From a virus: a stretch of 64,000 nucleotides of DNA. Positions 258-37,427 of the stretch are shown piece by piece (the stretch's first letter is position 1; the number at the start of each line of letters is the position of its first letter). The position numbers and the translations under genes were made by a program. The stretch is taken from positions 1 through 64,000 of the IMG/VR virus record IMGVR_UViG_3300024239_000015. One strand, written 5' to 3'. The notes beneath the pieces were generated by a model. That model was not told where the DNA came from and ran no database searches. It saw only the letters and a program-made list of their open reading frames with translations.

Positions 258-2357
258 TTACACTTTCATTGGGGTAGGTAACGTCGTGTGTGACAACACC
301 CGATGCTGGAATAACTCCATCTTTTTCTGATGGTAATTCCGATGCGGAGGAACATCCAAACACGTTAAGTAGAAGAACTTCGGTTTCAGCGTAGGCCACA
401 GTTTCAACTGACGTAACCGTCCGATGATCTGTAGGTTCGCTTGACTGCCACTCACCGCTGTGGTTAAAATACACACCGTTAAGTTAGCGATGTCAACCGC
501 CGTACCTGCACTTCCGTACGTAGAGACAGAGATATCCGACGTCATCAAAACCTCGTAGTCTTCATCACTCGTGTACTTCGAAACCGTTAAGTCCCCCACC
601 CGGTCATCAATGTATTTCGCAATTGCGTCACACATCTCCACCTGAGCAGCTAACAACAAACACCGCTGCCCTTCCACGTACTCTGCAATAAAGCCATGTT
701 TCACCACACTCCAGATTAACTCCAAGTACCGCTTGAGTCGCTCTGGTTTGCGCATGATCCATTTCTCATACTCAATGTGACTGTACTGCCCTTTCCCGTT
801 CTTAAAGTTCAGTCCCTTCCGTTCCAGTAACTGATACTCGATGTTTCGAACGTGCGTGTACTTGATATATGCACCGCCATTCTGCCTCAAGTGCAGTGGA
901 TACGCAATCTGATACATCTTGTCAATGAAAGGGTCGTCCGACTCTAGCGTCGCTGACAGATACAACGCTTTCGGGATATGCGTGTACAAGTCAATCTTAA
1001 AGTTCGCATGAAAGTTCTGGTGACACTCGTCCAGTATACGAAACCCTACCTTCAACTCTTTATAGATGTCTTCCGGCGGGACTAGGTACTTTGGCATTCC
1101 CAAGAACTTCGTCTGCTCGTACAGACGGATGTAGTCAGAGATCGTATCCGTTGTCACGAGGATCGCTTGACAGTTGTCTGGAATGGCGTCGTTATCTGCT
1201 TGTTCCAAAATAGAGTGCAACTGTTTCTGTCCACGGACCGTGATTAACTCCTGTGGTTTTAACCCATAGTTTTCAATCAAGTCCCCTTTCCACTTGTCGA
1301 AATACCGACCTAACACCATCACTAACAAACGTGTACCGATACGCTCGTTGGCTTTGAGCGCACACGCTGTGTTGTGAGTGACGACGTGATTTTCAAAGAC
1401 ATATAAGGCGTCTGGATGATCGACTTCGATACACGTAGCTGGTGCCTCGTGTGAATATTCAATCGAAACGATTCGTAGTCCCGGCGCGTCCGGATACACA
1501 CTTCCGGTAACGCTCCACAGCCCATCTTCTTCTTTTAGCGTTGCGACACCACCGGCTTGCCACACGAGTTGTTGGTGTGCGATCGCAGCAGCTTTAGAAG
1601 TACTTACGTAGTTAGCGTTATCGAGATGGTCTTCGCCTAATAAACCTCCCTTATAGAAAGGAATGTAGCAGCGATTGTGTTTTAACCAATCCCCTATAGT
1701 GTTTGTATCGATCACCGCTTCGCTGGAATCGTCCAGTAACACTTTCCAGAGATGCTCCCCACCCGCGTAAATAAAACGTCCGTCTTCGAATAACACGCGG
1801 TGTAATTTAGACACACCGTGCGGGTATACGTTAAGGACTTTCGTGTGGGTTCCATCAGGTGCGATTACGTACTCTCCAACTCGAATGTCACCCAATTGCT
1901 TCCAACCGCCAGGGATTTTGACTAGAGTTCTGTTATCTCCTAGCTTTCCCCTGCCGGTCTGAAGGGTTACAACCTTGGTGTGTCCTTCCTCAACGATGTA
2001 GTCGATGATGGGACCTTGGTCTTCTCGAGCCACCCAACTCTCAGGCATTTTCACTTGTGACGTCGCTAAAGGGTACAGCGGATGTTCGATAATCTCCAGC
2101 TGGTCTAAGGTGTAGCCTCGTTTGGTGAACTCCGCTAAAAGTTTGTCGTACTGGTGTTTATGAAACCGCCACTCTGCTTTGTCTTCAGAGCGCGCAGCAA
2201 ATACCCGTGTGGCAGTCCGTACAAAACGCTGTCGTACTTTCTCCATGGTGTACTGCACCAGACTGTAGGTAAAGTCTTTAAGCACCAAAGCGGCTGGTGC
2301 TTCGACTTTAGTCACCTTCACTCCATGACTGTACACATCTATTCTACAAATCTTCAC
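258..2357 (-). CDS. SF2 DNA/RNA helicase interrupted by an intein
   Basis: The 699-residue precursor is a superfamily 2 helicase. Extein motifs are Walker A TGRGK|TACAL (split by the intein), motif II DECH, motif III LSATLE, and a C-terminal region with motif V-like TAVDIANL and motif VI-like QIIGRLRQ. After removal of 191 residues the spliced protein would be about 508 residues, typical of UvsW-like phage helicases. The start is GTG at 2355-2357 with GGGAG upstream. It follows the beta' C-terminal RNA polymerase gene across a terminator. A role in DNA replication, recombination or transcription remodelling is inferred from family only. Confidence 0.88.
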   Translation of the reverse strand: MKICRIDVYSHGVKVTKVEAPAALVLKDFTYSLVQYTMEKVRQRFVRTATRVFAARSEDKAEWRFHKHQYDKLLAEFTKRGYTLDQLEIIEHPLYPLATSQVKMPESWVAREDQGPIIDYIVEEGHTKVVTLQTGRGKLGDNRTLVKIPGGWKQLGDIRVGEYVIAPDGTHTKVLNVYPHGVSKLHRVLFEDGRFIYAGGEHLWKVLLDDSSEAVIDTNTIGDWLKHNRCYIPFYKGGLLGEDHLDNANYVSTSKAAAIAHQQLVWQAGGVATLKEEDGLWSVTGSVYPDAPGLRIVSIEYSHEAPATCIEVDHPDALYVFENHVVTHNTACALKANERIGTRLLVMVLGRYFDKWKGDLIENYGLKPQELITVRGQKQLHSILEQADNDAIPDNCQAILVTTDTISDYIRLYEQTKFLGMPKYLVPPEDIYKELKVGFRILDECHQNFHANFKIDLYTHIPKALYLSATLESDDPFIDKMYQIAYPLHLRQNGGAYIKYTHVRNIEYQLLERKGLNFKNGKGQYSHIEYEKWIMRKPERLKRYLELIWSVVKHGFIAEYVEGQRCLLLAAQVEMCDAIAKYIDDRVGDLTVSKYTSDEDYEVLMTSDISVSTYGSAGTAVDIANLTVCILTTAVSGSQANLQIIGRLRQLKLWPTLKPKFFYLTCLDVPPHRNYHQKKMELFQHRVLSHTTLPTPMKV
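1371..1943 (-). mobile_element. Class 3-like mini-intein in helicase Walker A motif
   Basis: Precursor residues 139-329 separate GRGK from TACAL of the P-loop. The segment has splicing-block features: LVKIPGG and GEYVIAPDG near the N-terminus, GGEHLWKV, and the C-terminal LYVFENHVVTHN followed by Thr. The first residue is not Cys, Ser or Thr but Leu. Trp204, Cys309 (ATCIEV) and Thr330 match the W-C-T triad of class 3 inteins, which use an internal Cys for the first step. No intact LAGLIDADG or HNH motif is visible; LVWQAGGVA may be a remnant of a homing endonuclease. Confidence 0.85.
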
Positions 2358-2426: not shown

Positions 2427-4406
2427 TTACACAGTCGGGTTGATGATTGGATCAAACGGATGCGGAGTGCGTAATCGTCTCAAGAACGCTGCAGGGTCTG
2501 AGAACACTGCATGCTGCTCTTGGTACGCTGCTTGTGCAGCCAAACTACGCCCACCAATGATTTCGCTGTACCGACCGAATTGTGCTTCCCCTCCTGGTAA
2601 AGGTAAACGGAAGTCTCCTCGGCTTTTCGAACGAATCATCGTTGCTTTGAGAATCACCTCTAACAACGCAATGTTGATCACAAACTTACCGCTGACCAAG
2701 TCATAGAAATCAGCCAACGCAATTGCAAGGCTGTTGTGGTCTGAAAGATCCAAGTGTTCTTTTGCTTGGTTGTCTCCATTGCCTTTGATCAATGACTTGA
2801 CGTCTGCCATAAACTCAATCATACTGGATTGTTTCTTCGGTAGTACAAACAACGGTTGGTTGTGTGTCCAGCCTGCTAAACTCACCTTGATGTACTTCGC
2901 ATCGGTTTCGTACCCTACGCGAGCAATGTGCTCTAAGAACTCTTTGCTGAAACTAGAGAGACGAGACCCCATACAGACTGACACAGGTGTGGTTTCTCCA
3001 AACCCGTCGTCGTCTTCTGTAATAAACTGCACAGAAGAGAGTTGGGAGATTCGAGAGATACTCAAGTCGGAGATATCACACAACGCGATGTCATTTAAGT
3101 TAGGGACTTCTTCTCGTAGCACAGCAATCGTTGTGCGTTTGGGTTTGATCTTCGAGGAAATCGCTATACTGACCCGATCAGGTAACACAGCGATGTAGGG
3201 TTCGTCGTAGGTAGGTACGATAAACTCATCCACGAGCGCACTACCGTTTAAGTGTTTAGTAGACAGTACGTTTTGGGACACTGCAGAGCAGAGCTCAATA
3301 ACCGCCATATGACCTAAACTGGTTTCTTCATCGATACTCAGACCAATGTCCCCTAAGCACGCTAGACACACTCCTTTAGGGGAGATGTGTTTACATTGCA
3401 TAGGAGAGCGTAGAAAGATCGTGGTATTGACTAAGTGCGTTTCGTTCCCTAAGATTCGTTTGATACTACCGTCTGCAAGTACGTGGTTTTTACCTGCAAG
3501 AGAAGGGAGGTGTTTCTCTTTGACTGTCCAAGGAACGTAGTCTGTGGAACCACAGTCGTAATTCACAACGTGGTCGATGATGTTCCCAACCAGCTGTAGT
3601 TCACGGTTGAAATACTCAACATCCGCCAGTGGATCTTTCTGTAAGAACAGAGCAAGTGATGCAGCTCTGGATTCCATCATCGAATCCGCCAGAGTCACTA
3701 AGCCGTGTGCAAACCCATACACGATCGGTTTGTTAAACACGTTGTAACTGATGTCTTGTAGAATCCCCCGTGGACCAAACACCTGCTGGATTTGTCCAAT
3801 CTTTAAAAGAGCAGACTTGATCCCTTCCGCTACACGGTTTCCTCGTAACTCCGTGGGAGAGTTCAGAGTTTTCCCTACCACCTTATACACGTCACGGATA
3901 TGCATGTCCGCTTGTTCGCACAGCTCAGGGTCGTCCCAGTTCATGGATTGAATGCGTTCGTTTGCGGCGTAGATGTCTGGATGCTCTAACACTTCCAGAT
4001 AATCCAACGCACTGACAGACGTTACGTACGCACCCAACAACCCATTGCAGTCGTTCACTAACGTGTTGACTTGTTCGTACGCTTCTTTGCGTAAGTCCAA
4101 TACATGCACACGCCCTTGCGTGTAGTCGTGGATATCAAACATCACTCGCTCAAACAACCGTGGTGTGGTTTGAGCAGTGAGTCGTTCATTCCCAATGTGG
4201 TGACGTTTACAGATGGGTACCTCAGGCGCTCGTTTGAAGAAACTCCAGTGGTACCACGAGTAGATCGTCTCACGGATTGTCGTGGTTAACAACCCATCGT
4301 CAAAGTGGACGACACAGGGTAAGTTCTCCCCATCAATCGCTTGTGGAAGTGCCCAGATCTGCCAGCGTGTGTACTGCAGTAAATCCCGTACGTTGTACTC
4401 TAGCAT
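2427..4406 (-). CDS. RNA polymerase beta' subunit, C-terminal half
   Basis: This 659-residue protein matches the C-terminal half of multisubunit RNA polymerase beta'. GPRGILQD (residues 211-218), the following KPIVYGFAHGL and SRAASLAL resemble the cellular region leading into the bridge helix. YDCGSTDY (283-290) resembles the DDCGT element. RSPMQC..GVCLACLG (333-351) is the four-Cys zinc site. LSTKHLNGSA (381-390) sits where the trigger loop lies. It starts at ATG with AGGAAA upstream and overlaps the stop of the beta gene by 7 bases, so the two are probably co-translated. phiKZ-type phages encode such split subunits for their virion and non-virion polymerases; which enzyme this serves is not decided by sequence. 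Confidence 0.85.
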   Translation of the reverse strand: MLEYNVRDLLQYTRWQIWALPQAIDGENLPCVVHFDDGLLTTTIRETIYSWYHWSFFKRAPEVPICKRHHIGNERLTAQTTPRLFERVMFDIHDYTQGRVHVLDLRKEAYEQVNTLVNDCNGLLGAYVTSVSALDYLEVLEHPDIYAANERIQSMNWDDPELCEQADMHIRDVYKVVGKTLNSPTELRGNRVAEGIKSALLKIGQIQQVFGPRGILQDISYNVFNKPIVYGFAHGLVTLADSMMESRAASLALFLQKDPLADVEYFNRELQLVGNIIDHVVNYDCGSTDYVPWTVKEKHLPSLAGKNHVLADGSIKRILGNETHLVNTTIFLRSPMQCKHISPKGVCLACLGDIGLSIDEETSLGHMAVIELCSAVSQNVLSTKHLNGSALVDEFIVPTYDEPYIAVLPDRVSIAISSKIKPKRTTIAVLREEVPNLNDIALCDISDLSISRISQLSSVQFITEDDDGFGETTPVSVCMGSRLSSFSKEFLEHIARVGYETDAKYIKVSLAGWTHNQPLFVLPKKQSSMIEFMADVKSLIKGNGDNQAKEHLDLSDHNSLAIALADFYDLVSGKFVINIALLEVILKATMIRSKSRGDFRLPLPGGEAQFGRYSEIIGGRSLAAQAAYQEQHAVFSDPAAFLRRLRTPHPFDPIINPTV

Positions 4407-7000
4407 TTCTGTTTCCTCGCTTCTTGACGTTTACGCGTCGTAAAACGACGACCACTACATTCCATCACGTGATTCACAAACAAGTAACTCCGACCGTTCC
4501 CACGTTTGACTACGTGTTTGTCCCACACGGCTTGGATGTCCATCGGGTTGTCAGCCGTCAGTAGTTTATACGCAATCGCTTTTTGTGCTGCAGGAGAGTT
4601 TTGCATCTCCAAGAAGTCCGCTGTGGCTTGAGGTCCAATCTTTGCAACCAGCAAACGGATTTCTGCTTCACCCAGTATCCGTGTCGGGTTTTCACGCCAC
4701 GGTTTACTGTTACGATCGTTCTGCGTGAGTTTCGCTAAGATCCCATAGTGCTGACGTTTGAAGCTGCTGCCCGCTGCAGCGTCATCGCCAATCTTCTCTA
4801 ACAACATCACGTACATACTACCAATCAACACAGGGTCTTTCGTCGTGTACTCTTTCCCAGCGTAATCCTTATACGTCACAGGACCGATAGGAATAGGAAA
4901 CGACTCTCTGAGCTGTTGGATTTGTGGAGCACCAATGTTAGGACTGTGGGGTGGGAGCAACAACCTCACCACAGGCTGGCTGACCGCAAACTCCGGATGG
5001 CGATGTTGGTGAATCTGCTCATTTAACTCTTTGAGCTTTTCAGCTGGACTGAGTTTGAAGCTTAAGTACTCCTCATATTGCAACGGAGAAGCAACCGAGT
5101 AATACGCCATCAAATACCGCCACGCATCGTCCACACGTCCTCGATCCATAAACTTGATCAAGTTCTGTCGCACCCACCAACTGGTTGCGTTGACGTAATG
5201 TTCGTAAATAATACCCGGATTCATTCGTTTGGTGACCGAGTCGCCACAGAAAACCAGATGTGCTCTACGTCCCCATTGGTCTATAGGCATATCTTCCCAT
5301 TTTCTGATATCTACCAATACCCCTTTCTTTTTGTCCAGTTATGTCGCTACCATAACCCGGTGTGCTAAGACACCCGCCCTTACTTTCATAAGGGAACAGA
5401 CTATATCAATCCCACAGCGGTACGGTTTATGTACCCTGGTTGGGCCTCTCGTTTGGGGCGGCCAATCGCTTGCCGCTCTACAGGGTGGTCCAGTCCCTTA
5501 GTCGTTGAACACATCCCATACCTGTAAATAGGGTTAGGGACTTCGATGCGGATTGCCCCGACGTTACTACAGTAACGCTCTATGTCTCTTTTACCATACC
5601 TGAGTAGTTAGTTCAGCCACCGTGGAGTGATGTAAACATCACTCGATCACTGTTTCCAGCACGGCTTGGTGTACATAGTTTCTAGGGTGTTCCCGTCAGT
5701 TAGATGAGTGGCATCTAAGAATTACTTCCTAGACGAACAAAGCCTTACCGCTCATTGAGCCATAAGTTCCGTTACCAAGTAAGCCTACAGCTTTTGAACC
5801 TACATTCGGTGTGTACTTGTAGGTGTATTTGATCTTTACCCACCAATCATCCAGAGGTGCAGCACGATACGTTCTCGTTACGATCGCTTTGGCATTCTTT
5901 GGATTATTCGGTAGGGCTTCTAGTGCAAGGAAACGTTCCAGTTCAGGTGTGGTTTGCACCCGTTCCGGTTGGTACTTTCCATTTCCTATACGCCGTACGT
6001 AATCTCGATACGTTTGGATGACCTCACTGTAAAACTCATCCTGCGCAGTTTGATACCGCTGTGGTTGAGTTTCCATCCCCACTGGCGTCGGTGGGGTTTG
6101 GTTTGTAAAGTCATGGAGTACTTCGATGTCAGTGACGATCGCACCACCTTTAGCGTACACGCGTTTATCGAACTTGTAGTCGATTTCCCGTAACGCTTTA
6201 AGCGACATTTGACATGGTCCTAAGAGTTCATCGTAAGGTCGCATGACAAACAGTAACCCATCGTCTCTTATTTTCTCCCCTACGTCTGGATACGGTTTGT
6301 AATTCTCATCGTCCCCATAAAGGTTTAACAAGAAGAACTTTTTACCATAACTACAGACAGCCTCTCCAAACGCCGTAGCGCGATTGGCTTTACACCACGT
6401 ATCGGAGGCAACGATACCGTCCTCGATGATCTCTGGGATCGTCATGAACGCAATATCGGTTTCTACCCCGTACATATACTCCCCATCGTCAGTGACGTTG
6501 GGAGAGTCTGCAAACACGTATCCTTTAGGGATAATGTCCCCTGGTTTAAATTTGTTAAAGCTGTTCTGTAACTGATCCGCTCTGTATTTAAACCCGAAGG
6601 TTTGGTGCGCACAGTGGTGTGTACGTAAAAGCACCATCCCTAAGGAATGGATTCCATTTTGTAGTTTCTCCATCTCCTCGTAGATCAGGATCGTCGTGGG
6701 GTTACTGCGAAATGGAAAGCCTCCTAGTTTCTTTGGAAACTTATGGATTACTTTTAACAACCGTCCGGTGGTAGGCATCGTTTGTTTAAAAGTAGTTTGT
6801 GCGTATTCAAACTCGTGTCCTGCGATCAAGTTAGGTCGCGTAGGACAATCCACCACTAAACTTTGTGCCTGATGACCTCCCCGCATGGATAAACGCGGGG
6901 AAGACGCACAGGCGATATAGTTTACTAAATCGGTGGTGTTCCCGAGCAATTGGGGATGCAGCTCGTTTTTAGACCTGTGTACCAAGGGTCTCAAAATCAT
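4400..7000 (-). CDS. RNA polymerase beta subunit, C-terminal half, split by a group I intron
   Basis: Two open frames form one gene. Exon 1 is about 7000-5739 and exon 2 about 5321-4400, giving roughly 727 residues after splicing in frame. The N-terminus (SSPRLSMRGGHQAQS and following) aligns with the beta stretch DANRALMGSNMQRQAVPL. The exon 1 end (VGSKAVGLLGNG) matches GDKMAGRHGNKG. Exon 2 begins near WEDMPID and continues CGDSVTKRMNPG, matching EDMPYD and GVPSRMNIGQ. Neither frame alone carries a complete conserved block. ATG at 6998-7000 has AAGGAAGAG upstream. The equivalent phiKZ beta gene (71-73) is also intron-split. A promoter-like motif lies about 100 bases upstream. Confidence 0.85.
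5322..5738 (-). mobile_element. Group I intron in RNA polymerase beta gene, no ORF
   Basis: The 417-base interval between the two beta exons has no long ORF. It carries group I core signals on the minus strand: GCTGGAAACAG, AACGTCGGGGCAATCCGCA (P4-P6 side), and GTTCAACGACTA (P7 side, 5499-5510). I place the 5' splice site after GCTTT, because GAAGT about 10 bases into the intron can pair with it as guide sequence, and the 3' site after a G at 5322. This keeps frame. Exact junctions are inferred. Confidence 0.8.
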
Positions 7001-20206: not shown

Positions 20207-22003
20207 TTACCAGCGAGACTGGAAGCTTTGACCGTTGTTAAACGTCGGTGCGTTGTAGCCAGTGCTGAATGCATTTGCAGACAGACCGCCAGACAACACG
20301 TCTACGTTTGCACGAGGTACGACGCGAGTTTCGTTTTGTGTGTACTCTGGAGTCAGAGCCGCACCTACTTCACCCAACGCAGTCACCAGGGCTAACAGAA
20401 CGCGATCGTTTAACATCACTTCAGTAGCGTAGTCAGTGATCACCACGTCACCTAAGTATTTCTTCTGCAGCTGACACAGTACAGTCAGACGTTCTTCGGT
20501 AGAGGCACGACGTGGATCGTAACACTCATCGAAACGGTAGACTTGGGTTAAGTCTTTGTCACCTTCCATAGCAGAGATTGCCATGTGGTCGAAGTCACGG
20601 ATGTCGGACTTCACAGAGTGGCCATTGGTGTAGTAACCTAACGGAACCCGTGTAGGGACGACTTTACCGATAGGACCAGAACCTAAGCGCTGGAACACTT
20701 CAGAGAACTTACCAGAGGTCAGGTTATCACACGCTTGTGTGAAACGCTTCACTGCCGTGTCAGAACCCGCACAGGCGTCACGTAACAGACTCAGTAACCA
20801 GGTGTCTTCACCTGTTTCTGGGATGTGTACTACGACCGCTACTTCTGGGTGAACGAATTCAGCGAAGAAGCGGTTTACGTCGAACGTAGGTTCGTTAGCA
20901 CCCACACGAGTACCTGCTGGCAGTAAACCTTCAGCGGCCATTTCAGCAGACAGCACGTCTAAGCTACGCTCAGCGCCATGGCGGTGGAACGTGTTGATGT
21001 ACTGACGGCTACGGATTGGTTCAGCAGCTAACGCTAATGCCAACACCATGTGCTCAGGCGTGGTCACACCGGCGTTCAGTGACAGATCGGTGACAACCAT
21101 ACGCGCTTGGAAGTGCTGAGTAGTAGCACGAGCTGGCTGGTATGGCGTTTCGATCATGCGTGGGCCTACGTAGACTAAGTCTAAGAAGGCAGACAGCTGA
21201 GCCATGTTACGAGATTGACCCGCTAACAAACCACCATTGGTGTTGGTGTTCACCAACGCAACAGAAGCAGTGATGTCACGACGTACGGGTAAACCACCTG
21301 CTGTTTTAGCAGGAGCTGACGCTAACTCTACACGGCTACGTAATTGGAAGCCTGCTTGGTTTGCACCTTTCATAGAAACGATGTACTGACCTGCTTCCTG
21401 TAACGCTGCTTTTAAGTTGTACTGTAAAGCAGACATTGCACGGACTAACACGTCGCGTACGGCTTTGGCATCGCCTGGAGCAGTTTCACGGGGTACTACA
21501 CTGAAGCCTACGAATGACGCCGTTGGCGGTAAACCTGCTAACGCTTTAGACACCAGTGGTTGGAACTGAGGATCACGTGTTAAGTCACCTACGGTTTGTG
21601 GGTACAGTAACTCACGTTGACCTAAGTTGATGCTGTCGTTGCGTTTGGCTAACATCGGCAGTTCTTCTGCAGTACCTGCTAATAACATCAGGTACACCGC
21701 AACTTGCTTTTTGTACTCACCCACGATCGCTACAGCTGACACTGGGATCAGAGTCGTTTGTTGATCCAGTTCCAGCATGGTGAACTTGAAGTTGTCACGG
21801 TTGGCAGAGTCTACCATTGGCTTCAGAGTTTCTAAGTAGCCAGACAGCACTTGACTGTGTGGGCTTAACGGCATCACACCGCTGGTTTGTGCTGCAAACA
21901 TAGCAGCTAAGTTTTGAGCGACTGGTTGTTCACCAGTGAACGTTTGTTGTTGTTCTGCTTGTGCCTGAGTCGACTTCTGGCTGGCAGTGTTCAGTTCTTT
22001 CAT
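20207..22003 (-). CDS. Probable abundant early protein; candidate phage-nucleus shell (chimallin)
   Basis: 598 residues. A Gln-rich disordered N-terminus (about 1-45) precedes a large globular region and a flexible C-terminal tail ending NGQSFQSRW. There is no membrane segment or enzymatic motif. The unit is monocistronic, with its own promoter-like motif (22066-22101) and strong terminator, and the ATG has AAAGGAAG upstream, suggesting high early expression. Size, flexible tails and context in a PhuZ-encoding phage fit the nuclear shell protein ChmA (about 600-630 residues), but I cannot show homology by eye. A capsid or other virion protein is the alternative. Confidence 0.4.
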   Translation of the reverse strand: MKELNTASQKSTQAQAEQQQTFTGEQPVAQNLAAMFAAQTSGVMPLSPHSQVLSGYLETLKPMVDSANRDNFKFTMLELDQQTTLIPVSAVAIVGEYKKQVAVYLMLLAGTAEELPMLAKRNDSINLGQRELLYPQTVGDLTRDPQFQPLVSKALAGLPPTASFVGFSVVPRETAPGDAKAVRDVLVRAMSALQYNLKAALQEAGQYIVSMKGANQAGFQLRSRVELASAPAKTAGGLPVRRDITASVALVNTNTNGGLLAGQSRNMAQLSAFLDLVYVGPRMIETPYQPARATTQHFQARMVVTDLSLNAGVTTPEHMVLALALAAEPIRSRQYINTFHRHGAERSLDVLSAEMAAEGLLPAGTRVGANEPTFDVNRFFAEFVHPEVAVVVHIPETGEDTWLLSLLRDACAGSDTAVKRFTQACDNLTSGKFSEVFQRLGSGPIGKVVPTRVPLGYYTNGHSVKSDIRDFDHMAISAMEGDKDLTQVYRFDECYDPRRASTEERLTVLCQLQKKYLGDVVITDYATEVMLNDRVLLALVTALGEVGAALTPEYTQNETRVVPRANVDVLSGGLSANAFSTGYNAPTFNNGQSFQSRW

Positions 22004-35303: not shown

Positions 35304-35432
35304 ACTCTGTCCTTTTCTAACGGTCAGATCTCCTCTGACGCATAGCATTAATTCGGGTGCACGATCCTGTGTGTCGTGGGGTTATACGTTAATCTCATGT
35401 GGTTAATTTATATAAAAAGGAAGGGGTTCATT

Positions 35433-37427
35433 GTGCTTAGCTCCGTATTAAAACGTTTTGTCGGGTATGTCACTGTAGAAGAAATCGGAGATCAAATTCA
35501 CGTAGAGGGCCTCAACAACCAACGTCTTTCTCAGCTGATCTACAAAACGTGGAAGACCTCGAAAATTGAATCAGGGATCTTTCGCGAACACAACAAGTTT
35601 GGCTTTAAACTCCACAAGTTCTTTGCGGTAGAGCTTTTGTATATCGTAGAGAAACTCTTTCTCCAGTACAAAGGTACACAAGGCTTTGCTAAAACCCTCC
35701 TCAGTATCAAAGCGGGCTTATTGGAACACACGTGGCTTAAGAACACCCTCGTAGAACCAGAGTCTCCTTTATTAGACCGTAGTCAGTTTAAACTCCTGAA
35801 GAAGAAACCGTATCCGCATCAGGAAGCGTTCTTTAAAGAGTACGAGCGTAACGCACAGCAGTACGGTCTACGTGGTTATATGTTAGCCTCCCCACCGGGT
35901 TCTGGGAAAACCCTAATGTCCGCGTGGTTGTCGTATGGGTTAAAAACCGACCACACCATCGTCGTGTGTCCGAAGAACGCGTTAACTGATCCATGGGCGA
36001 GTACGTTGGATAAAGAGTTTGTGTCACCTCCCACGTATTGGACTTCTGCGGTAGGTACACCACCACCTCCTAACAAACGGTTTTATATCCTCCACTACGA
36101 GTACTTAGTCAAGTTCTTAGAGGAAGCAAAGTTCTTAAAAGGGAAAAGAGTCAACCTCGTCCTAGACGAGTGCCACAACTTTAATGACCCTGACTCTATC
36201 CGTACAGATGCCTTTGTGACGTTAGCAAAACTACTCAACCCAGTCTCTACGCTCTGGATGTCGGGAACGCCGATCAAAGCGTTAGGAAAAGAAGTCATTC
36301 CTTTCTTACGGACGATCGACCCACTCTTTACTCAAGAAACAGAGACTGCGTTTCGAACGATCTATGGTCTAGACTCTGCACGAGCTCTGGATATCTTAGC
36401 CAATCGTATCGGTAAGACCACCTACCGAATCGACAAAAGCCAGATCATCGAACGTGCTCCGATCGTTAAAGAGATTCGCGTAAAGATTCCCAAAGCAGAA
36501 CGGTACACCTTAGATGTGATTCGTGTAGCAATGACCGAGTATATCACAGAACGGTTAAAGTACTACCAGAAAGACTTTGACCACTACGTAAAACTCTTTG
36601 AGGAGTGTATCCGGTACCACAAAGACCGAATTGCGCTCAAGTCACAGTCTCAACAACACGAGTTCTCCAAGTACTTAACTTTACTGAGAATCATCCGTAA
36701 GAGTACCGACTACCGTCACTTAGGACCAGAGATCAAGTTTTGTAACCTTTACGAGAAACACGAATTGATTCCTTCTTTACCAGATGCCCTAGCGCGTCAG
36801 TTTAAGGAAGTGAAAAGTATCGTGAAGTACTTACCTTTGAAAGTACGTGGAGAGTGTTTAGGAAACCTCCTCAATCGTAAACGCGTGGAGTGCGCGATCG
36901 AGGTGATGGAAAATCTAGACTTAAAAGACTTAGTGGATTCGTCCATTAAGAAAACTTTACTCTTTACGTCCTACGTAGATGTTGTCAAAGCAACAGACAC
37001 ACGACTTAAAGGGTTAGGGTACAAACCTCTCACGGTCTTTGCAGAAACCAACAAAGACTTAGACGGTATCTTAGAACGTTACAAGAAAGGTAGTGAGAAC
37101 CCTCTGGTAGCGACCTTAGACAGTTTATCCACCGCAGTCCCTATCCTTGCTGCGAACACCGTTGTGTTTCTGAACTCCCCGTTTAGACCCCACGAACGAG
37201 AGCAAGCGATTGCTCGAGCGGATCGGATCGGACAAGACCAGCAGGTCTACGTGTTTGATGTGTTCTTAGATACTGGGAACGTCCCTAACATTTCTACTCG
37301 TTCTAAAGAGATCCTCGAGTGGGCACAAGGACAGATCGACCAGTTGATGGGGACCACAGGAACGGTCTCTACCGAAGACTACGGTTTAGACACTGGGGTG
37401 AGAATGCCAGTTAGTTTTTACTGGTAG
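35433..37427 (+). CDS. SNF2-type SF2 helicase/ATPase
   Basis: 664 residues. Walker A SPPGSGKT near 150, motif Ia-like VCPKNAL, motif II DECHNF, motif III-like SGTPIKAL, and motif VI region QAIARADRIGQDQQVYVFD, where the R-x-D-R-I-G-Q element is typical of the SNF2 group. These proteins translocate on duplex DNA and strip bound proteins; phage versions act in replication or repair. GTG at 35433 is chosen because AAGGAAGGGG lies 6 bases upstream; upstream in-frame ATGs have none. Transcribed away from the structural gene cluster at 33682-35303. Confidence 0.87.
   Translation: MLSSVLKRFVGYVTVEEIGDQIHVEGLNNQRLSQLIYKTWKTSKIESGIFREHNKFGFKLHKFFAVELLYIVEKLFLQYKGTQGFAKTLLSIKAGLLEHTWLKNTLVEPESPLLDRSQFKLLKKKPYPHQEAFFKEYERNAQQYGLRGYMLASPPGSGKTLMSAWLSYGLKTDHTIVVCPKNALTDPWASTLDKEFVSPPTYWTSAVGTPPPPNKRFYILHYEYLVKFLEEAKFLKGKRVNLVLDECHNFNDPDSIRTDAFVTLAKLLNPVSTLWMSGTPIKALGKEVIPFLRTIDPLFTQETETAFRTIYGLDSARALDILANRIGKTTYRIDKSQIIERAPIVKEIRVKIPKAERYTLDVIRVAMTEYITERLKYYQKDFDHYVKLFEECIRYHKDRIALKSQSQQHEFSKYLTLLRIIRKSTDYRHLGPEIKFCNLYEKHELIPSLPDALARQFKEVKSIVKYLPLKVRGECLGNLLNRKRVECAIEVMENLDLKDLVDSSIKKTLLFTSYVDVVKATDTRLKGLGYKPLTVFAETNKDLDGILERYKKGSENPLVATLDSLSTAVPILAANTVVFLNSPFRPHEREQAIARADRIGQDQQVYVFDVFLDTGNVPNISTRSKEILEWAQGQIDQLMGTTGTVSTEDYGLDTGVRMPVSFYW

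Follow-up and report, generated by a model that had tools for sequence, protein, structure and literature searches.

The window, a stretch of 64,000 nucleotides from a phage record of 233,377 bases, carries what is almost certainly (a probability of roughly 0.93) a mini-intein of class 3, set in the P-loop of a UvsW-like SF2 helicase of phiKZ type and derived from a full-length homing intein by the loss of its LAGLIDADG endonuclease. The helicase would be produced as an inactive precursor, with the Walker A motif split between its lysine and its threonine, and would be restored by the removal of the insert.

The spliced product, of 508 amino acids, can be aligned over its full length with phage helicases that have no intein, and is 38% identical to that of phage DT01, while its C-extein matches the PHROG profile of the DNA helicase phrog_16 (E=8e-29). 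This match, together with the phiKZ-type context of the gene, supports the host protein originally proposed. The Walker A motif is divided as GRGK138 / L139...N329 / T330, with the intein ending in VVTHN, and the GxGK/T motif (the slash marking the site of insertion) is uninterrupted in the intein-free homologues of the phages DT01, Totoro, and Centimanus. The interruption of GRGK/T had been predicted from the letters of the DNA, and agrees with the boundaries found in both the empty and the occupied homologues; the predicted coordinates, 1371-1943, are exact, the insert running from L139, at nucleotide 1943, to N329, at nucleotide 1371 (Table 1). To judge from these comparisons, the insert lies far beyond chance, given the existence of empty homologues, of homologues occupied at the same bond, and of invariant catalytic residues. 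It is an intein, rather than a domain specific to this helicase, because the empty homologues align end to end and nearly identical occupied and empty pairs exist. The frame is open across the intein despite the split P-loop, and selection would not be expected to maintain such a reading frame without splicing.

Table 1. Features of the helicase precursor gene and its intein (window coordinates; residues numbered on the precursor).
Feature	Position	Strand	Basis
Precursor gene, phiKZ-type SF2 (UvsW-like) DNA helicase with in-frame intein	258..2357	-	ORF, GTG start, 699 aa
Intein, L139-N329, 191 aa (573 nt)	1371..1943	-	boundaries set by comparison with empty and occupied homologues; Hint fold pLDDT 94.8
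N-extein Walker A GRGK, G135-K138	1944..1955	-	G135, G137, and K138 invariant in helicase alignment
T330, Walker A Thr and predicted C-extein +1 nucleophile, outside the WCT triad	1368..1370	-	invariant in helicase alignment; role by class 3 mechanism in PMC6195587
Helicase Walker B/DEAD-type box DECH, D443-H446	1020..1031	-	helicase alignment: D443 invariant, E444 nearly invariant
Hint splicing domain, N-terminal half	1734..1943	-	profile, structure-sequence match, model, fold search
Hint splicing domain, C-terminal half	1371..1478	-	structure-sequence match, model, fold search
L139, intein position 1, not Cys/Ser/Thr	1941..1943	-	A/E/M/V/N in named-phage relatives
Block B H202-L203-W204: catalytic His (B:10), WCT Trp (B:12)	1746..1754	-	aligned to H65/W67 region of solved class 3 inteins; H202 and W204 invariant
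C309, block F:4 Cys, predicted initiating nucleophile	1431..1433	-	aligned to block F Cys of Msm/Mch DnaB1; invariant
Block G T327-H328-N329: WCT Thr (G:5), penultimate His, terminal Asn	1371..1379	-	aligned to THN of 6rix; invariant
Remnant of LAGLIDADG/DOD motif 1, PFYKGGLLGEDH vs PYILGAILGDGH of full-length relatives	1626..1661	-	alignment; least confident block of the model (pLDDT 71)
Remnant of the end of the endonuclease domain, VSTSKAAAIAHQQLVWQAGGVATL vs FCTTSPFLAMQFQYLIRSLGGIASL	1536..1607	-	alignment; modelled helix 117-129, strands 133-139 and 142-148

Class 3 inteins are defined by a tryptophan at B:12, a cysteine at F:4, and a threonine at G:5 (the WCT triad), in the absence, under the strict definition, of a class 1 nucleophile (PMC3196547). 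In the DnaBi1 intein of Mycobacterium smegmatis (Msm), the triad is formed by Trp67, Cys118, and Thr137, the last of these immediately preceding His138 and the terminal Asn139 (PMC6195587). The window intein has a non-nucleophilic first residue and a WCT triad of W204, C309, and T327, accompanied by H202, H328, and N329, and by T330 at the +1 position. The absence of Cys, Ser, or Thr at position 1 had been recognized correctly, as had the tryptophan in GGEHLWKV and the cysteine in ATCIEV, both of which align with the solved class 3 inteins. The threonine had been misassigned, given that the original prediction counted the +1 residue, T330, as a member of the triad, when the G:5 definition of PMC3196547 points to T327, in the terminal THN. 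A T330A mutation would be uninformative on class membership, because T330 is an ordinary +1 nucleophile.

No variation occurs at the six catalytic residues (H64, W66, C171, T189, H190, and N191 when counted from the start of the intein) among the 19 inteins from named phages, the window included, a set drawn from tblastn matches, with its members cut at the THN/T end. The same holds for 29 of 29 sequences of the set A3, where the invariance arises partly by construction, as these loci were found using F- and G-block patterns. The inteins of both sets are some 30-38% identical to the window intein. Position 1 varies freely among the relatives (A, E, M, V, or N, with Leu in the window), as expected if this residue has no chemical role. 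Counting against the class 3 reading, the window has in block B a glycine where the DxxH motif of Msm DnaBi1 has its aspartate, a residue that the 19 named-phage inteins all lack and that eight of the 29 A3 sequences possess.

The structural evidence points in the same direction. AlphaFold2, run on an alignment of 29 sequences, returned a confident Hint fold (mean pLDDT 94.8, pTM 0.89), and the first seven Foldseek matches in the PDB were all chains of 6bs8, 6riy, and 6rix, that is, of the two solved class 3 inteins, DnaB1 of M. smegmatis and of M. chimaera (Mch), followed by 6riz (gp41-1 with a grafted WCT triad), and then by native gp41-1 and class 1 inteins. A sequence profile search of the PDB recovered strong matches only to the Msm/Mch DnaB1 class 3 inteins and to gp41-1. 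The residues of the WCT triad and a fold search led by solved class 3 inteins thus support the predicted class assignment. On the other side, no strong curated intein HMM match was found for the window protein in Pfam or NCBIfam, which is ascribed to the divergence of this intein, and a Pfam match to HpaB_N (E about 0.08) was dismissed as chance. The Pfam profile PF14890 matched nothing anywhere in the phage genome, so that a family-specific profile was needed; over the whole phage record, this profile detected no second intein of the same family. A single-protein scan of viral contigs recovered no near relative, and an alignment of 17 helicases proved too divergent to serve as a search query.

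The degenerate endonuclease region that had been suspected is present, in the form of two fragments. The full-length relatives, found in the phages LucasX, Haymo, JN03, Kwan, AerS_266, Rebecca, phiHQ, and Miami, have 342-352 amino acids and two DOD-type motifs, such as ILGDGH and LMDTDGTV. In the window, motif 1 reads LLGEDH, from which the GDG is missing, and motif 2 is deleted; the second fragment, VSTSKAAAIAHQQLVWQAGGVATL, aligns with the stretch found beyond motif 2 in these relatives. Both DOD catalytic motifs are either broken or absent, as in a mini-intein. Other relatives are partly deleted (EL, with 248 amino acids, SL2, with 274, V2TSL, with 293, and AhC3, with 231) or short (KpZh_1, KpLz-2_45, phiKT1028, VP4B, and PS1, with 197-203 amino acids, and Slicko, with 142 and no DOD motif). 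The window copy should, by its sequence, be able to splice, but homing is not expected, because the endonuclease is reduced to these two fragments and has lost motif 2.

Splicing would begin with the attack of C309 on the K138-L139 bond, in which H202 and T327 would assist and W204 would pack the site; a first branched intermediate would result. T330 would then take over the N-extein, forming a second branched intermediate, and the cyclization of N329, aided by H328, would free the intein, after which an O-to-N acyl shift would restore an intact GRGKT P-loop and, with it, the activity of the helicase. This class 3 pathway is the most likely one; the sequence, the boundaries, the invariant residues, the predicted fold, the empty alleles of relatives, and the decay of the endonuclease are observed, while splicing itself and the order of its steps are inferred. 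The precursor would presumably have no ATPase or other activity, given the split P-loop and the precedent of RadA of Pyrococcus horikoshii (quoted in PMC6195587).

The intein may also have been kept after the loss of the endonuclease because its splicing is regulatory, with a redox- or stress-sensitive C309 delaying the activation of the helicase during infection. This proposal can be added to the main reading without conflict, and is unlikely. It has an analogue in Msm DnaBi1, itself a class 3 P-loop mini-intein, which is inhibited by H2O2 through the block F cysteine (PMC6195587). The window intein has a second cysteine, C230, but this residue lies in the remnant linker rather than at the place of Msm Cys48. 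Mini-inteins of this family persist in several phages, although an intein can be lost only through a precise deletion, which also accounts for their persistence.

It is very unlikely that the insert is a class 3-derived pseudogene that no longer splices, in a helicase that is dispensable or has been replaced by a second SF2 helicase gene (35376-37427). Such a gene does exist in the window (phrog_62/phrog_16), the intein branch is long, and there is a precedent in the Arthrobacter Arth_1007 intein, a non-splicing class 3 relative without the F:4 cysteine (PMC3196547). The window intein has the cysteine that Arth_1007 lacks, however, together with all the other catalytic residues, no stop codon interrupts the 699 codons of the frame, and the Walker A and DECH motifs of the exteins are intact. 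Also very unlikely is a false resemblance to class 3, the insert being in fact a class 1 intein or an atypical one of a class 2-like kind, since, even though native gp41-1 scores almost level with the class 3 DnaB1 inteins in the profile search (54.2 vs 55.7 bits), the leucine at position 1 makes the class 1 first step impossible, on which ground this reading was rejected, the window has Trp and Cys where native gp41-1 has F65 and D107, solved class 3 structures lead the fold search, and class 2 inteins are without the WCT triad.

The class 3 mini-intein thus retained as the preferred reading has many counterparts. At least 13 named jumbo phages have a class 3 insert at the identical peptide bond, GxGK/T, of the helicase: EL (ORF40), LucasX (LUCX_80), Haymo (gp291), Rebecca (gp251), PS1, VP4B, phiKT1028, KpZh_1, KpLz-2_45, JN03, Kwan, AerS_266, and AhC3_1. 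The window intein shares with them the phiKZ-type host protein, the site, the WCT triad, the His and Asn residues, and a non-nucleophilic position 1, which is mostly Ala in these relatives, but Leu in the window; the inteins of those that were aligned are about 31-38% identical to it; several of them keep a full DOD endonuclease (342-352 amino acids), whereas the window does not. Of 60 records sampled along the ranked matches to the spliced helicase, approximately seven were read as occupied, an estimate taken from breaks in the matches, rather than a count made by a tool. Two pairs of almost identical phages differ at this bond. In the Serratia phages Haymo (occupied) and Moabite (empty), the flanking DNA is 100% and 98.7% identical, with 348 additional amino acids in the former, while in the Erwinia phages Rebecca (occupied) and RAY (empty), the flanks are 98.9% and 98.3% identical, with a difference of 345 amino acids. 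The empty site of RAY reads GKGK/S, and the occupied site of Rebecca, GKGK/T. In Pseudomonas phage EL, two neighbouring helicase genes each contain a class 3-type intein, with the junctions THN/S (ORF39) and THN/T (ORF40), and InBase lists several phiEL inteins.

Given this, the description of the window copy as a useful data point overstates its rarity. Inteins of this kind are already known, with same-site class 3 copies in the deposited genomes of EL (record AJ697969) and LucasX (annotated as 'intein-containing'), and in many other jumbo phages. The window intein is real but largely expected, because the same insert occupies the same site in many sequenced relatives.

The extein tree places the window among the helicases of moabite type (92/95, unstarred), a placement that is not firm. 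In the intein tree, which is limited to WCT inteins and 117 columns and is poorly resolved, the window forms the longest branch and has no firm place. The intein may have arrived either by homing or by descent with decay, both of which are compatible with the trees. The overall GC content of the intein, 48.2%, is in line with that of the exteins (49.3% and 47.5%) and of the window (47.8%), but its third-position GC is lower (46.1% vs 53.6% and 60.8% in the exteins), so that base composition is ambiguous as to its age. A single phage origin has been proposed for the class 3 inteins (Tori and Perler, summarised in PMC3196547).

Among the other known inteins, Msm DnaBi1 and Mch DnaB1 (6bs8, 6rix, and 6riy) share with the window the class 3 residues, the P-loop site, the mini-intein form, and the Hint fold, although their host is the replicative DnaB, block B contains DxxH, Msm DnaBi1 has Ala1 and Ser+1, and identity with the window is only about 20% over the structural alignment. 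The resemblance to gp41-1 (6qaz) and to 6riz, its WCT-grafted form, extends to the fold, to blocks A and B, and to the THN end, but native gp41-1 is a class 1 intein that initiates from Cys1. The mycobacteriophage class 3 inteins (Bruin TerL and Colt gp205; TerL and Catera Gp206-type) have the WCT triad and THN/T in their block positions, but are found in other host proteins and retain the endonuclease, while Colt gp205 has a Ser at position 1 in the present alignment. The intein of Lactococcus phage 949 has Ala1, the block F cysteine, and THN/T, with Ile in place of the block B tryptophan (EHIIPY), and appears by its sequence to be a relative of class 3 that lacks the W. A complete WCT triad was also found in phage P-loop inteins with Cys1 (L026:2980-3600, L027, L028, L086, and L089) or Ser1 (L059, L060, L062, L067, L069, L078, L052, and L102), many others having Ala1, and the Cys1 and Ser1 forms may be two-nucleophile inteins or intermediates between classes 1 and 3. 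This combination was dropped as a novelty, since Tori and Perler reportedly extended class 3, in 2011, to cases with Cys or Ser at position 1 (MP-Catera Gp206).

The helicase gene has genes of the multi-subunit RNA polymerase (RNAP) as neighbours, with a phage-family DNA polymerase, a terminase, and a tail sheath gene further along. An RNAP subunit gene also directly precedes the helicase in LucasX, KpLz-2_45, phiKT1028, VP4B, JN03, Kwan, Rebecca, and Centimanus. A divergent nuclear shell (chimallin-type) protein is encoded at 20207-22003 on the minus strand (phrog_4795, E=6e-49), and because of this match, the phage is probably nucleus-forming. An RNAP beta subunit gene is split into two halves by a group I intron (Rfam RF00028, 5377-5767, minus strand, 53.8 bits); one ORF (5729-7000) matches positions 5-403 of phrog_3295, and the other (4400-5317), positions 408-696. 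A single gene separates this intron from the intein.

In the open literature that was searched, the terms 'class 3 intein' and 'jumbo phage' co-occur in a single paper, which reports none in the phage that it describes, and a survey of the class 3 inteins of jumbo phages may be unpublished. It is tempting, though unlikely to be right, to suppose that the nucleus-forming jumbo phages hold a large, still undescribed stock of such inteins at the GK/T site of SF2 helicases (and terminases), with living intermediates from homing to fossil forms, in which members without an endonuclease would be kept because conditional splicing times the activation of the helicase in the course of infection. The jumbo phages surveyed have many class 3 inteins at one helicase site, in full-length, decaying, and endonuclease-free forms, with near-isogenic occupied and empty pairs, and the window copy represents one further, divergent, endonuclease-less example. 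Because these graded forms and pairs occur at a single site, the gain, decay, and possible regulatory retention of inteins can be put to the test in phages already in culture, among them Haymo/Moabite and Rebecca/RAY.
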